Shown piece after piece: positions 17,207-22,296 of a DNA stretch of 64,000 nucleotides. The position numbers were made by a program, and so were the translations under genes. The notes beneath the pieces are model-generated. The model did no database searches. It was not told the DNA's origin and saw only the letters and a program-made list of their open reading frames with translations. The stretch covers positions 1-64,000 of the forward strand of contig CAMUYQ010000006.1 in assembly GCA_947165025.1 (NCBI GenBank), in the 5' to 3' direction. Each line of letters opens with the position of its first letter. Position 1 is the stretch's first letter. This DNA comes from an uncultured Lachnospiraceae bacterium (GTDB taxonomy: Bacteria; Bacillota; Clostridia; Lachnospirales; Lachnospiraceae).

Positions 17207-17237
17207 AGACACCGGTTTTACGGCCGGTGTCTTTTTT
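17207..17237 (+). terminator. Rho-independent terminator of the envelope acetylation cluster
   Basis: A 9-bp perfect stem, AGACACCGG (17207-17215) with CCGGTGTCT (17224-17232), is followed by a run of six T residues (17232-17237). Confidence 0.92.
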
Positions 17238-17314
17238 ACAGCCTATAATTGAGCGAATATTCATAATATTAATAAAAAATATTTAAAAAAATTAAAAAAT
17301 AATTAATAATTGTA

Positions 17315-17343
17315 TTGACAATAGACAAATACGGTAATATAAT
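17315..17343 (+). promoter_or_regulatory. Consensus sigma-70 promoter of the free-standing RNA
   Basis: TTGACA (17315-17320), 17 bases, TATAAT (17338-17343): both hexamers match consensus exactly, with ideal spacing and a very A/T-rich upstream region (about 17255-17310) like an UP element. Initiation is expected near 17350. No start codon with a ribosome site and a sizeable frame follows. Confidence 0.85.
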
Positions 17344-17349
17344 ACAGAC

Positions 17350-17798
17350 ATAAACAAAGAACGTGATTGAGTTCAAGAGACACGGGCCCACCGTACACAG
17401 GACCCGAATCCATGCAAAGGAGGTACGGACCACCTAAGAACTAAATTTCCAACTTCAAATGAAACACATTAGTGTATGATAATTTGAGATCCTTAGTTCT
17501 TAAGACGATACGAATTCATTATAGAAGATAGTCTACGACAAGGAAAGCGCGAAGAAAAGCGAGGATGCGGTGACGAAGATCACCAGATGACGCATCATGA
17601 AAATGAAGTTCCGGTAGAGAGACAACTGAATAGCGAATGAGATCAAGAATAAATCCTGATAAAAAGGGTCAGGTAAGAAAAGTATCGTTGAACGAGGGAT
17701 TTACGATCGGAGGTATAGTCCATTGGATACAGTTTCGAAGTAGAGGCGGATGCAGATTATAATATCGGCATCCGCTTCTACTATTTGTATGGTTTTTT
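17350..17798 (+). ncRNA. Large structured non-coding RNA, about 450 nt, family not recognised
   Basis: This stretch has no credible gene on either strand but is bounded by a consensus promoter and a strong terminator. Several paired elements are visible. A possible pseudoknot crosses CGGG (17383-17386)/CCCG (17403-17406) with CCGTAC (17391-17396)/GTACGG (17423-17428). A perfect 10-bp stem joins TAAGAACTAA (17435-17444) and TTAGTTCTTA (17493-17502), with inner pairs TCAAAT/ATTTGA and ACAC/GTGT. GATGCG (17564-17569) pairs with CGCATC (17591-17596) around GTGA/TCAC. Further stems are CCTGA/TCAGG (17655-17673) and ATCGT/ACGAT (17684-17707). The next gene is convergent, so this is not a leader. 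I do not recognise tmRNA, RNase P, SRP or 6S RNA features. It could be a known large RNA family (ROOL, OLE, GOLLD, raiA type) that I cannot match by eye, or a new one. Confidence 0.75.
17739..17798 (+). terminator. Terminator of the structured RNA
   Basis: AGTAGAGGCGGATGC (17739-17753) pairs over 15 bp (one G-T) with GCATCCGCTTCTACT (17768-17782). A T-rich tail ends in TTTTTT (17793-17798), just before the end of the convergent kinase gene. Confidence 0.8.
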
Positions 17799-17806
17799 AT
17801 TTCGGG

Positions 17807-20158
17807 TCAGTGATCCAGATTTGTGCTTATGACGTCTGAGAGTTCTTCGATCTTCATCGGTTTGCTCATATAGTCGGCAAATCCGTTTTCAAGATACATC
17901 TCCCTTGCGCCGGCTATAGCGTTTGCTGTGAGGGCGATATATGGAGTATCTGCGTTCATATTGCCCGGAAGATCAGATGCTTTATGAAGTGTTTCTATTC
18001 CGTCCATGCCGGGCATCATATGATCAAGAAGTATGACATCGTATCTTTCCTGCGTGATCATTTCGAGCATCTGTGTGCCGCTTGTTGCGGTCACAACATC
18101 AGCCTTCAGGATCTTCAGAAGGCCTCCGGCAACCTTGAGGTTCATCTTGCTGTCATCTACGACCAGAACCTTTACACCGGACAGATCGGCAAGGTTTTCA
18201 TCCGTTGTGTCGTCTTTGGCGGCAGCTTTTGACGTACTGATGTCGCCTATCGGAGAAGGATCGGTGATCGTCTGCGGGAAACATACTGTAAATTCGGTTC
18301 CCGCACCGTATGTGCTGTCGCATTCTATCGTACCGTTCATGAGCCTGACAAGGCTGGATGCTATGGCAAGGCCGAGTCCGGTTCCTTCGATGGACGCCGT
18401 TTTAGTGCTGTCGAGTCTTTCAAAACGTTTGAACAGTTTATGCCGGTCGCTGTCCTTTATCCCTATGCCGGTGTCTTTGACGGACACAAGAACGTTTATG
18501 TGATCCTCGTCGGTTTTCTTGCAGTTGATGTTCAGCGTGATGCTGCCTTTAGGGGTATATTTGACCGCGTTCCCAAGAAGATTGATCATGATCTCACGTA
18601 TACGCTTCTCGTCACCGATGAGCTTTGACGGAAGATCGGGTGAGATGTTTTTGACAAATTCAAGCCCCTTCTCGTCCGCCCTGACGCTTATCATCGTGAT
18701 GATGTTGTTGATCAGAAGCTTTGTATCGTATTCGGCTTCCTCTATCTCCATACGTCCCTGCTCGATCTTCGAAAAATCAAGAACGTCGCTTATTATCTCA
18801 AGAAGAGCTGTTCCGGCTCCCTTGATGTTCTCGGCATATTCATGCACCTTTTCGCCGGTGTCCTCGCGAAGGATCAATTCGTCCATTCCGAGTATTGCAT
18901 TGATGGGAGTCCTGATCTCGTGACTCATGTTGGCAAGGAATGTTGTCTTTGCCCGGTTGGCACTCTGCGCTTCGAGAGTTTCTGCCCTGAGCATGCTGAC
19001 CCTGCGGACCTCTTGAGCGACCGCAAGTATCAGAAGCGCAAGCAGTCCCAGGGCAACAAATGCCCCGTCATTTGTGTGAACGGGGAGATTTACGTGAATG
19101 AGTTCGGCCGTGCTGAGTACGGCAAATATGCCGAATCCTACCGCGATCTCGGTGTTCTCTTTATGCCCCAGTTTGAACGTGTCATAAGCTATGATACCGA
19201 AACAGAACAGTGCAACGATGCCGGCAATGATATTGCTGATCGTCATGGTCTTGCTGAAGTCGGCAATGCCGAGAAAATGAAGCAGTGTCAGTATCACAAA
19301 ATTCGCGATTATCAGAGTGCACAGCGGATAGTATATTTTCGGATACCTGTATCCGGCTGTACTGTATATATAAGCGAGAATCGGGAAAGGAACCATCATG
19401 ATGACAAGATAAGCAGCGATCCCGTCGATGAAATAGTTCTGGAACAGAAGAGGATATGTGAAGTTATCAAATATGAGCCATATAGCTCCGCCGAGAACGG
19501 CCAGACTTAAATACCATATCGGGAAAGGCTGTTTCTCACGTATCCTGTGCATCAGTGCGATTATGGTGATTATCGTTCCTGAAGTAATGATCGCGAACCC
19601 CAGGAAGACAATGAGTATGTTGTCATGTATGAGAGTCATGGCAAACCCGAGACGGTTTCCGATAAATATTTCTTCGGAGTGGAAGTCGGAGTATGGATAA
19701 TCCGGATACACCACTTTCAGTTCTTTACCCTTATCGGTCTTCCTCAGCGTTATCGGTACCCAGATACGCTTAACATTTTTTCCAAACGGCGAATAGCTCA
19801 GCCTGTAGCTGTTTCTCATCTCTCCGTCAATGTATGCGTCGATATCGTTTCCGGACAGGATGAACATACAGTTTCCATCGGCGATCGTATCGGTAAGAGT
19901 TGTTGTGAGCACAACATCACTTCCGGGTTCGACGTCAAAAATCTCGTTCATTCTGTACTGCCGTACCGTTCCGTTTGCAGCCGTATAAGACCATACGGCA
20001 TCGTACGGCTCACTTTCGTTTGCATAAAGGGAAGGATTTTTGACGAAGATCTGTCCGTAGATATAGAGGATCAGTGTGAACAGAAGGAAAGTACACATGA
20101 AGATCCTTATGATTATATCGAATATGCTGTGGGTTGATTCGCGCCCTCTTATACTCAT
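17807..20158 (-). CDS. Hybrid sensor histidine kinase/response regulator, multi-TM sensor
   Basis: The 783-residue protein has an N-terminal TM, an extracytoplasmic beta-rich sensor (about 40-170), and a seven-or-so-helix membrane region (about 175-385). A HisKA domain follows ('FLANMSHEIRTPINAILG', His about 413), then HATPase ('INLLGNAVKYT', 'VKDTGIGIKD', 'EGTGLGLAIASS') and a receiver ('VLVVDDSKMN', 'VILLDHMMPGMDG', phospho-Asp about 712, Lys in 'MSKPMK'). The layout resembles 7TM-DISM type kinases. It should phosphorelay through its own receiver to an HPt partner such as the one encoded nearby. Start at 20158 is chosen from the adjacent extended -10; an in-frame ATG 60 bases further in has an AAGGA site and is an alternative. 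Confidence 0.92.
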   Translation of the reverse strand: MSIRGRESTHSIFDIIIRIFMCTFLLFTLILYIYGQIFVKNPSLYANESEPYDAVWSYTAANGTVRQYRMNEIFDVEPGSDVVLTTTLTDTIADGNCMFILSGNDIDAYIDGEMRNSYRLSYSPFGKNVKRIWVPITLRKTDKGKELKVVYPDYPYSDFHSEEIFIGNRLGFAMTLIHDNILIVFLGFAIITSGTIITIIALMHRIREKQPFPIWYLSLAVLGGAIWLIFDNFTYPLLFQNYFIDGIAAYLVIMMVPFPILAYIYSTAGYRYPKIYYPLCTLIIANFVILTLLHFLGIADFSKTMTISNIIAGIVALFCFGIIAYDTFKLGHKENTEIAVGFGIFAVLSTAELIHVNLPVHTNDGAFVALGLLALLILAVAQEVRRVSMLRAETLEAQSANRAKTTFLANMSHEIRTPINAILGMDELILREDTGEKVHEYAENIKGAGTALLEIISDVLDFSKIEQGRMEIEEAEYDTKLLINNIITMISVRADEKGLEFVKNISPDLPSKLIGDEKRIREIMINLLGNAVKYTPKGSITLNINCKKTDEDHINVLVSVKDTGIGIKDSDRHKLFKRFERLDSTKTASIEGTGLGLAIASSLVRLMNGTIECDSTYGAGTEFTVCFPQTITDPSPIGDISTSKAAAKDDTTDENLADLSGVKVLVVDDSKMNLKVAGGLLKILKADVVTATSGTQMLEMITQERYDVILLDHMMPGMDGIETLHKASDLPGNMNADTPYIALTANAIAGAREMYLENGFADYMSKPMKIEELSDVISTNLDH

Positions 20159-20164
20159 GTGCCA

Positions 20165-20173
20165 ATTATACCA
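20165..20173 (-). promoter_or_regulatory. Extended -10 promoter abutting the kinase start
   Basis: The minus strand reads TGGTATAAT, with only six bases (TGGCAC) before the ATG at 20158. A transcript from here would be leaderless for that start. Confidence 0.5.
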
Positions 20174-20250
20174 CACATTACGGGCCCAAAATCTGAAAAA
20201 TATGATAAAATATAAAAGAAATTTGATAATAAGATCTCCGGGAGGGTACA

Positions 20251-22296
20251 TTGAACGACATACGAAAAGAACGACTGATCATAGTCATCACGACACTTGC
20301 GGGAATATCGTGCATACTCCAGAACTGGTTCGGAGATTGGGAATTCTGGGTCCCTGCGGTAGTATTTGCGGGAATGATACTCCTTTGGATCATTCATCTT
20401 GTGCACAGGTTTGATCCGTCTTCGAGGATCAACCTGTATTTTGCTTTTGCGGCATTTCTTCTGTTCTATCATGGCATTCATGACACAAGTCTGTTTGACA
20501 TATCGGTATCGGTAGCGCTGTTCATGGTCACGTTCACATCGGCCGACAGGATAATCCTTCTGAATATCATACTGGCGGAATACGTACTGGTCATGGTGAT
20601 CCAGTTCAGATTTCTTGTTATCAGCAATCGGACCGGCATGAGTGCGTTTGATGTCATGAGAATCGTTTACCATGTAGCTACCGTTCTGACTATGTACATT
20701 TTCAGCCGAATAACCGTTAACAGAAGGAGCGCTGAAAAAGAACTTGAAGATGAATGGGTTAAGACCGTTAATGAGAATAACCATGACATGGAGGATTTTC
20801 TGTCGAACATCTCTCATGAACTGAGAACGCCCGTAAATGTCATAAGCGGGATGACAACGATCATGCAGAAGAACAACGACAGCAAAGAACTTGGGTCCAT
20901 ACAGGACGCAGGCATCAGGCTGGCTCATCAGATCGAAGATATCCAGGATTATACGGAGATCAAGCGCGGACAGCTTCATATCGAGGAAGAAAACTATATG
21001 TGCGTTTCTCTCGTTAACAATGTTGTGGCGAATTTCAAGGCCAAGCATACGAAGGATCTTGAACTGATCGTGGATGTTTCTCCGCTGGTGCCGACAATGC
21101 TGAAGGGAGATATAGAAAAGCTTCATAAACTTTTCAGGCATCTTCTTGAGAATGCGGTCAAGTTTACGAAAAAAGGCGGAGTGGTAATAAGGGTATTTTC
21201 TGTTCCGCATGAATACGGCGTGAACCTTATGATCGAGATAACGGATACAGGTATCGGAATGACAAGAGCCGATATGTCACGTGTATCCAAGGGAATGTAT
21301 CAGGCAAACAAAGAACGTGACCGAAGTACTGGCGGTATCGGTATCGGCCTTCCGATCGTATACGGATTTGTGCATGAAATGGGCGGCTTCGTCAATATCA
21401 GAAGCACAAAGGGAGTGGGTACTACGGTACGTGTTTCGATACCCCAGGAAGTTGTGGATCCCCAGCCCTGCCTGAGCGTAAACGATCCTTCGCAAAAGAA
21501 CATTGCATTCTATATAAGACCGGAGAAGTTCAAAGTACCCGTAATGAGGGATTTTTACAGGGAGATGGCTGTCAATCTTTCGACAGGACTGAAAACGAAA
21601 ATGTACTATACGGGTGAAAAACGTGAGATCGAACATCTGACGACGGAAGGTGTGATCACTCATATCTTTACCGGACAGGAAGAATACGAAGCCGACAGAG
21701 CTTTCTTTGACAATCTTGTTTTAAATGGTTTTGAAGTGACCGTAGGTGTTCACGAGGGATCTTCCGATAAGGTATCTGACGGAGTGATCGCGGTGCCGGA
21801 TCCCCTCTATGCATTTCCTGTTGTCAGGGTCCTTAACGGTGAATATGATTGCGCCGGTGGTGTTGAGGAAAGGGGAAAATTGTGCTTTACCGGAATAAGC
21901 GCTCTTGTTGTTGATGACGAGCCGATGAACCTTGTCGTGGCAACGGGCCTTCTGCGGGATTACAAGATATTTGCCGATACGGCCGAAAGCGGACAGGAGG
22001 CCATTGAGAAATATGAGAGTGGTGACTACGATGTGATATTCATGGATCATATGATGCCCGAGATGGACGGCGTGGAAGCGATGAAGAGGATCAGACAGGT
22101 AGCTGATGCAAGCTACAGGAGGCCTGTCATCATCGCGCTTACAGCCAATGCACTCAGCGGCGCCAGGGAAATGTTTGCAAAAGAGGGATTTGACGGGTTC
22201 GTCGCCAAGCCGATCAATATCGCTGAATTCGAACGTGTCATGAAGAATGTCCTTCCCGAGGAAGCGGTAAAATACGAGGGGAGGGATGCGCAGTGA
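20251..22296 (+). CDS. Hybrid sensor histidine kinase/response regulator, membrane bound
   Basis: This 681-residue kinase starts at a TTG preceded by a strong GGGAGGGT site. Five or six TM helices (about 8-155) lack a sizeable outside domain, so it probably senses the membrane or a hydrophobic signal. HisKA ('FLSNISHELRTPVNVISG', His 189) and HATPase ('LLENAVKFT', 'TDTGIGMTRA', 'GGIGIGLPIVYG') follow. Residues about 415-540 look like a decayed receiver with no phospho-Asp. A genuine receiver comes last ('ALVVDDEPMN', 'VIFMDHMMPEMDG', Asp 599; 'FVAKP' Lys). It is divergent from the preceding kinase and overlaps the next one in a GTGA junction, so the two are translationally coupled. Confidence 0.93.
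   Translation: MNDIRKERLIIVITTLAGISCILQNWFGDWEFWVPAVVFAGMILLWIIHLVHRFDPSSRINLYFAFAAFLLFYHGIHDTSLFDISVSVALFMVTFTSADRIILLNIILAEYVLVMVIQFRFLVISNRTGMSAFDVMRIVYHVATVLTMYIFSRITVNRRSAEKELEDEWVKTVNENNHDMEDFLSNISHELRTPVNVISGMTTIMQKNNDSKELGSIQDAGIRLAHQIEDIQDYTEIKRGQLHIEEENYMCVSLVNNVVANFKAKHTKDLELIVDVSPLVPTMLKGDIEKLHKLFRHLLENAVKFTKKGGVVIRVFSVPHEYGVNLMIEITDTGIGMTRADMSRVSKGMYQANKERDRSTGGIGIGLPIVYGFVHEMGGFVNIRSTKGVGTTVRVSIPQEVVDPQPCLSVNDPSQKNIAFYIRPEKFKVPVMRDFYREMAVNLSTGLKTKMYYTGEKREIEHLTTEGVITHIFTGQEEYEADRAFFDNLVLNGFEVTVGVHEGSSDKVSDGVIAVPDPLYAFPVVRVLNGEYDCAGGVEERGKLCFTGISALVVDDEPMNLVVATGLLRDYKIFADTAESGQEAIEKYESGDYDVIFMDHMMPEMDGVEAMKRIRQVADASYRRPVIIALTANALSGAREMFAKEGFDGFVAKPINIAEFERVMKNVLPEEAVKYEGRDAQ

Follow-up and report, generated by a model that had tools for sequence, protein, structure and literature searches.

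Shine-Dalgarno (SD) elements of the STAB-SD type, such as those of the hbs and aprE leaders, are situated close to the 5' end, have no useful start codon and stabilize the downstream mRNA. Large structured bacterial RNAs (OLE, ROOL, GOLLD and raiA) are free-standing, hundreds of nucleotides long and complex in fold. Bacterial minigenes such as axe-txe mg2, the LEE4 leader and ycbK are ORFs of two to six codons behind a strong SD in leaders of real genes; a UAA stop and Thr as last codon are linked to ribosome drop-off (PMC8708949). In Staphylococcus aureus, an extended SD was visualized by cryo-EM at ordinary gene starts, with spacer letters pairing to 16S bases upstream of CCUCC (PMC13009471). 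Structured RNAs and minigenes are already known, each separately.

The RNA described here is likewise free-standing and of similar size and complexity to OLE, ROOL, GOLLD and raiA, but it has no covariance-model match and its shared core is a predicted ribosome-binding module. It shares very short ORFs and strong SDs with the minigenes; in contrast to these, several such elements occur per free-standing structured RNA, most of them carrying CCN rather than a start codon. As in the STAB-SD, hbs and aprE leaders, an SD lacking a useful start codon is found close to the 5' end, but here the module recurs with a constant spacer and there is no mRNA behind it. Pairing of GWCC with GGAU(C), predicted only, resembles the extended pairing of S. 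aureus, here in a non-genic RNA.

The window, i.e., the whole stretch of 64,000 nucleotides analysed from an uncultured Lachnospiraceae bacterium, was confirmed to contain a free-standing gene (17315–17799) for a predicted structured RNA of about 440 nt with many helices and its own terminator (Table 1). An earlier interpretation from the letters alone (sequence-only reading) had described a perfect promoter behind an A/T-rich region, and both are present. A terminator-like hairpin (17207–17232) directly 3' of the preceding gene, which encodes a DUF4358 protein, is part of that gene, so that the RNA itself would begin near 17350, not at 17242 where the interval given earlier opens. The stretch had also been called gene-free. 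Indeed, the ORF list holds no ordinary gene from the promoter to 17800, and short listed ORFs (e.g., 17637–17762) are without support, but the RNA does contain a mini-ORF of six codons. Of 159 distinct RNAs, 128 have a near-consensus promoter (75 a perfect one) in the 290 bases leading up to the first module, as opposed to 1 of 130 control windows 1200 bases downstream (perfect in none). Transcription of the RNA is deduced from this family-wide conservation. In 11 of 12 aligned sequences of the close subfamily (L018 deviates), the −35 box is embedded in an ATTGT-ATTG-ACAAT inverted repeat (17300–17343), which may represent an operator.

Table 1. Predicted features of the RNA gene and its promoter, in window coordinates
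Feature	Position	Strand	Basis or remark
Possible UP region, A/T-rich stretch	17258–17312	+	Sequence; A/T-rich in 12 aligned relatives too
Promoter TTGACA-17-TATAAT	17315–17343	+	12 of 12 consensus positions; family-wide promoter test
RNA (extent deduced)	17350–17799	+	Start about 7 nt past TATAAT; 3' end in T-rich tract
5' hairpin CGGGCCC/GGACCCG	17383–17406	+	3 of 6 pairs change both sides, 12 sequences
Module 1, AAAGGAGGTACGGACCACC	17416–17434	+	9-nt Shine-Dalgarno word and conserved spacer; weak hairpin GG.GGU/ACC.CC
Module 1 frame CCT AAG AAC TAA	17433–17444	+	CCN at the place of the start codon, in-frame stop
Stem-loop H3–H5 past module 1	17435–17502	+	Good support for H5; poor alignment of H3 (57 % of cells pair) and H4 (74 %)
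Helix H6 closing the central domain	17505–17511 with 17682–17688	+	Nearly invariant
Central domain, H7–H10, with conserved ACAAGGA internal loop and GCGANGNRAAGC hairpin	17532–17618	+	Covariation; single folds
Hairpin H11 CCTGAT/GGTCAGG	17655–17673	+	12 aligned relatives
Module 2, GGAGGTATAGTCCA	17709–17722	+	Shine-Dalgarno and spacer of the terminal mini-ORF
Terminal mini-ORF TTG GAT ACA GTT TCG AAG TAG (fM-D-T-V-S-K)	17723–17743	+	Start and stop statistics
Terminator stem-loop, 14 bp	17740–17781	+	Begins at the stop codon; T-rich tract then to about 17799

The window contains no Rfam 15 family at or above its gathering score (models of OLE, ROOL, GOLLD, raiA, tmRNA, RNase P, SRP and 6S included), in agreement with the earlier statement that hallmarks of the last four are lacking. 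The best sub-threshold matches of a permissive scan of the window belong to unrelated families (E 1.1–2.9), and 20 homologous loci yielded nothing except one tRNA; a known Rfam family is ruled out by these three scans. In the open-licence literature, including the main texts of PMC11109978, PMC8632094 and PMC8040213, no such RNA was recognized. Lachnospiraceae, Blautia and Roseburia go unmentioned in the main texts of three discovery papers, and Eubacterium in those of two of them. The RNA may overlap with one of the 3161 candidates of PMC8040213. As far as searched, the anatomy is new: a free-standing structured RNA family that shares a core of start-less, putative docking sites for ribosomes and, in most of the members checked, ends in a predicted start-stop mini-ORF against the terminator.

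A large structured RNA is borne out by the fold of the strand 17350–17796 (−120.9 kcal/mol, z = −5.65), which none of 100 shuffles equals, and by a covarying central domain. Of 82 pairs compared across the 12 closest relatives, 13 are altered on both sides (5.9 ± 1.7 in shuffles, none of 500 equalling the observed count), and the 31 further pair types show no excess over shuffles, 431 of 500 of which reach 31. Helix H6 yields no covariation information due to its near invariance. The strong 3' hairpin seen earlier is kept in the 12 aligned relatives; its absence from the output of a simple terminator scan is probably due to a loop exceeding the limit of that scan. The possible pseudoknot, however, was not found: the single long-range helix tested, joining the flank of module 1 with module 2, does not rise above shuffled partners (131 of 500 reach the observed value; 42 RNAs).

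The central-domain model R2, built from the 12 relatives, also detects a second subfamily, of which four members match (E 3e-6 to 0.01). In an alignment of 16 sequences, 11 of 17 pairs of the domain change both sides and 98.9 % of cells pair, which corresponds to few independent events because the alignment (A5; R2 aligned 16 of the 25 loci given) is model-fitted and biased toward its structure and the sequences represent two clades. None of 500 shuffles matches any of five measures, and slid versions do not exceed 4 such pairs or 48 % of cells. Single folds display the architecture in six of nine further sequences, namely L027, L031, L032 and L034 of the second and L022 and L024 of a third subfamily; those of L026, L020 and L029 differ partly or wholly.

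The most conserved parts of the RNA resemble ribosome-binding modules, for which reason it would not be purely noncoding in design. Each module consists of a Shine-Dalgarno word and a fixed spacer (GGAGGU-AYRGWCC-A), the word having the form AAAGGAGGU in the window. Two copies are present there, GGAGGTACGGACCACC (17419–17434) and GGAGGTATAGTCC (17709–17721), each with the full word followed by AYRGWCC. Across the loci retrieved, 273 distinct elements were collected, the invariance of which is partly built in by the fixed search patterns, and related sequences among them are not independent events. They comprise 70 elements continuing with NTG, 195 start-less ones (CCN 185, ACN 10) and 8 of other kinds, most of these judged unrelated by eye. 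The frame of the start-less elements is closed within 4 codons in 156 of 195, compared to 29 and 64 for the other two frames. Among 194 CCN, ACN or AAN elements with a stop, UAA (163; UAG 22, UGA 9) and a last codon for Thr (98) prevail, both traits linked to drop-off in PMC8708949. The coding-like wobble at every third base of module 1 is partly fixed by the search. Module 1 was rejected as the C-terminus of an upstream ORF (RRYGPPKT followed by stop), the frame being closed upstream in 101 of 142 RNAs; in 17 it includes a start, and in the other 24 it stays open but lacks one.

With the presumed 16S tail, the module is predicted to form a duplex of −13.9 to −15.7 kcal/mol, more stable than that of a plain AAAGGAGG site (−11.5 kcal/mol), since the tail offers GGAU(C) as a pairing partner for GWCC, and also more stable than the module's own fold (−1.5 to −3.0 kcal/mol). 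The word TGGATCACCTCCTTT occurs at four places in the genome of a relative, and the longer 16S-tail pattern GGNTCACCTCCTTTCT was not found in the own draft assembly. On contig 8 of the own genome (L196, 92244–92255, minus strand), GAGGTACAGACC stands two bases ahead of the start codon ATG in an ORF judged by eye to be lipoprotein-like, i.e., a module in the ribosome-site position of an ordinary gene.

Module number and kind vary between RNAs. Anaerobutyricum hallii L053 contains nine modules, eight start-less copies in tandem plus a terminal TTG copy before the terminator. The RNAs of Blautia schinkii L075 and of the locus L120 combine start-less CCN copies, ATG minigene copies and a terminal TTG copy in this order. 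The ATG copies of these arrays read ATG-AGA-ACT-TAA, ATG-AAA-TCT-TAA or ATG-AAA-ACT-TAA, the first two of which occur in L075. Single folds of array repeat units as hairpins are weak and mixed. Promoter and terminal mini-ORF are kept in L018 (222–610) and L020–L022, from which module 1 is apparently absent. Two complete copies of the RNA stand in tandem at L071 (4178–5047, minus strand), each with promoter, module 1, terminal mini-ORF and a hairpin-like end.

In the 70 NTG elements, TTG (37) and ATG (31) are the usual starts (GTG 2, CTG 0), and an in-frame stop follows within 7 codons in 64 and within 10 codons in 69, versus 30 and 38 within 7 codons for the other frames. The resulting mini-ORFs are usually 5–7 codons long. 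A terminator was located by a simple finder behind 41 of the 70, with the stem beginning at −4 to +2 nt relative to where the stop codon ends; stop codon and stem likewise meet in the window. Away from the RNA, NTG follows in 6 and CCN in 14 of 77 pattern matches. With the strict pattern, an NTG element was detected in 59 of the 139 RNAs that have module 1 and enough downstream sequence. A relaxed pattern (free spacer, NTG with Asp or Asn as next codon, a stop no more than ten codons on and a hairpin there) revealed a terminal mini-ORF in 25 of the remaining 80 (opposite-strand control: 1 of 80). Overall, the mini-ORF was recognized in 84 of the 139 RNAs and by neither pattern in 55. Judged by its letters, the terminal module has the composition of a minigene (SD, start codon, very short ORF, stop), and the start-less modules offer a start-less SD in the 5' part of the RNA as in STAB-SD elements.

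Besides the locus itself, blastn retrieved eleven strong matches in genomes of the same genus (E 1e-48 to 1e-96), and at E ≤ 1e-4 the RNA was found in 14 of 37 genus genomes, the own one counted. A profile of these relatives detected further distant copies in the same and two other genera. The 47-nt core model R1, built from 66 sequences, has matches in 70 of 200 family genomes (69 of 199 genera, about a third) and in 4 of 391 genomes of the class, genome counts that are lower bounds because only 15–30 candidates per genome were scored. All four class genomes belong to the same family, which accounts for 16 of the genomes listed in the class set, and R1 has no match outside the family among the 391. 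At least 119 stretches of named genomes contain AAGGAGGTACGGACCRCC. Among the 80 matches listed, one is a chance match in an actinomycete (Spongiactinospora, L114); the others carry the name Lachnospiraceae, one of its genera or loose labels (Eubacteriales, uncultured bacterium). L114 was kept in early counts of core and module 1 and left out of those of neighbours, the long-range helix, the 273 elements, frames, promoters, codons and the 139 RNAs. The word RGAGGTACRGACCRCC occurs in 76 of 397 family genomes (reversed control word: 2 of 397). The RNA thus far appears confined to one family, the Lachnospiraceae. A mobile or repeat element or a phage RNA was dismissed, given one full copy in the own genome, no match of the RNA in phages or plasmids and none of the 18-nt word in viral contigs.

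Upstream of the RNA, 19 of the first 25 loci have a relative of the DUF4358 gene; downstream, 18 have a codirectional amidase-family gene (identity as Pfam Amidase_3 checked at L014 only). Between genera the neighbouring genes differ and none is general; due to this variation, the RNA leads no one gene. Downstream of the RNA in the window, two hybrid histidine kinase genes (Pfam HisKA, HATPase_c, Response_reg) stand head to head (17807–20251, minus strand; 20251–22296, plus strand), their ORFs overlapping by one base. The former is convergent to the RNA and occupies the position of the amidase gene in most close relatives.

The role of the RNA probably involves ribosomes. Ranked first, and favoured tentatively, is a ribosome-engaging RNA built of docking modules that would act in trans as a decoy or a brake on initiation. 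According to this proposal, 30S subunits would dock on the modules, the start-less ones holding a subunit without productive initiation, while the terminal module would let a ribosome initiate and then halt or terminate against the terminator hairpin; the folded centre would serve as scaffold. Such a decoy is consistent with a free-standing gene under its own promoter amid changing neighbours, with the start, early in-frame stop and abutting terminator stem of the terminal modules, with the early in-frame stops of the start-less ones, with arrays mixing start-less and start-bearing copies (L075, L053) and with a predicted 16S duplex more stable than both that of a plain site and the module's own fold. 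Against it stand the RNAs lacking a recognized terminal mini-ORF and the divergent relative L189, in which (1501 onwards) the terminator-like hairpin is preceded by a start-less CCA copy as final module, where others have NTG. As the mini-ORF is missing in some RNAs, yet was found again behind differing spacers, the odds of the readings are unchanged. Furthermore, the in-frame stop of CCN modules is unexplained if initiation never takes place there, and the module letters also form a small hairpin, so that a protein could be the real partner.

The objection concerning the in-frame stop applies equally to the possible, if rather doubtful, explanation ranked second, a ribosome-guarded RNA-protein particle. 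Here, a 30S subunit near the 5' end and another at the terminal mini-ORF would protect the structured RNA from decay in the manner of STAB-SD leaders, the function residing in the folded centre, probably as an RNA-protein scaffold. Protection of RNA by ribosomes at SDs and minigenes is described in PMC8708949 and PMC7509114. Module 1 lies 48–276 nt after the start of the −35 box in 142 RNAs (range scanned: 30–300 nt upstream) and offers the start-less SD that a STAB-SD needs, and the centre keeps its structure between subfamilies. However, the nine modules of L053 exceed the need of one guard. In addition, R2 has no convincing match among 79 loci from other genera of the family (three hits, E 0.05–0.71), which makes the centre specific to close relatives: the centre changes while the modules stay.

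That the small hairpin is itself the functional part appears unlikely. GAGGUAYRGWCC would then bind an RNA-binding protein for which the RNA would serve as a sponge, with the resemblance to an SD being incidental or derived from mRNA targets of that protein. Module 1 can indeed form GG.GGU/ACC.CC with a conserved purine mismatch, and tandem copies would suit such a sponge, but the hairpin is weak (−3 kcal/mol), NTG starts and in-frame stops at fixed places would be superfluous for a protein site, and RAGGTAYRGWCC recurs at only 4 further sites of the own genome, of which one lies at a plausible gene start.

Even less probable is a dual-function RNA whose product is a micropeptide, usually of 5–7 residues (fM-D-x-[EVI]...). 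Its best argument is the second codon of the NTG elements, which specifies Asp in 54 of 70 with both codons in use (GAT 32, GAC 22), together with the recurrence of MDEIA, MDEIV and MDSIV also where the spacer differs. With the start read as Met, however, the 70 elements encode 54 different peptides, which differ in length and final residue and are not long enough to serve as an export signal.

There is very little to be said for a cis-acting leader, in which ribosomes on the mini-ORF would break the terminator and allow transcription into the next gene. The stop abutting the terminator and the codirectional amidase-family gene of the first set of loci would fit, but among 65 RNAs the next gene runs in the same direction in 38, is convergent in 23 (as in the window) and was not found in 4, and downstream gene families differ between genera; on these grounds a uORF leader, attenuator or riboswitch was rejected. 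A CsrB/RsmZ-type sponge for CsrA is scarcely credible and was likewise rejected: the modules do hold GGA, ANGGA averages 5.6 versus 4.2 in shuffles (25 RNAs) and the own genome carries csrA, but GGA is not enriched (12.0 versus 11.7 in shuffles; 25 RNAs) and csrA does not co-occur with the RNA, exceeding the cut-off in 31 of 70 RNA-bearing genomes (39 without) versus 77 of 130 others (odds ratio 0.55, p = 0.053).

The ribosome-engaging decoy or brake can be taken one step further, to an RNA that works as a natural ribosome trap. Composed of start-less docking sites for 30S subunits and of abortive minigenes, in numbers that vary between species, such an abundant RNA would set the supply of free small subunits for initiation in Lachnospiraceae. 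In this specific form the idea is speculative and on balance improbable. In a major gut family, about one in three sampled genera carries the RNA. It is absent from Rfam 15, and its carriers include culturable species such as A. hallii and B. schinkii. If it binds ribosomes as its sequence suggests, it would influence translation in a manner new for an RNA.
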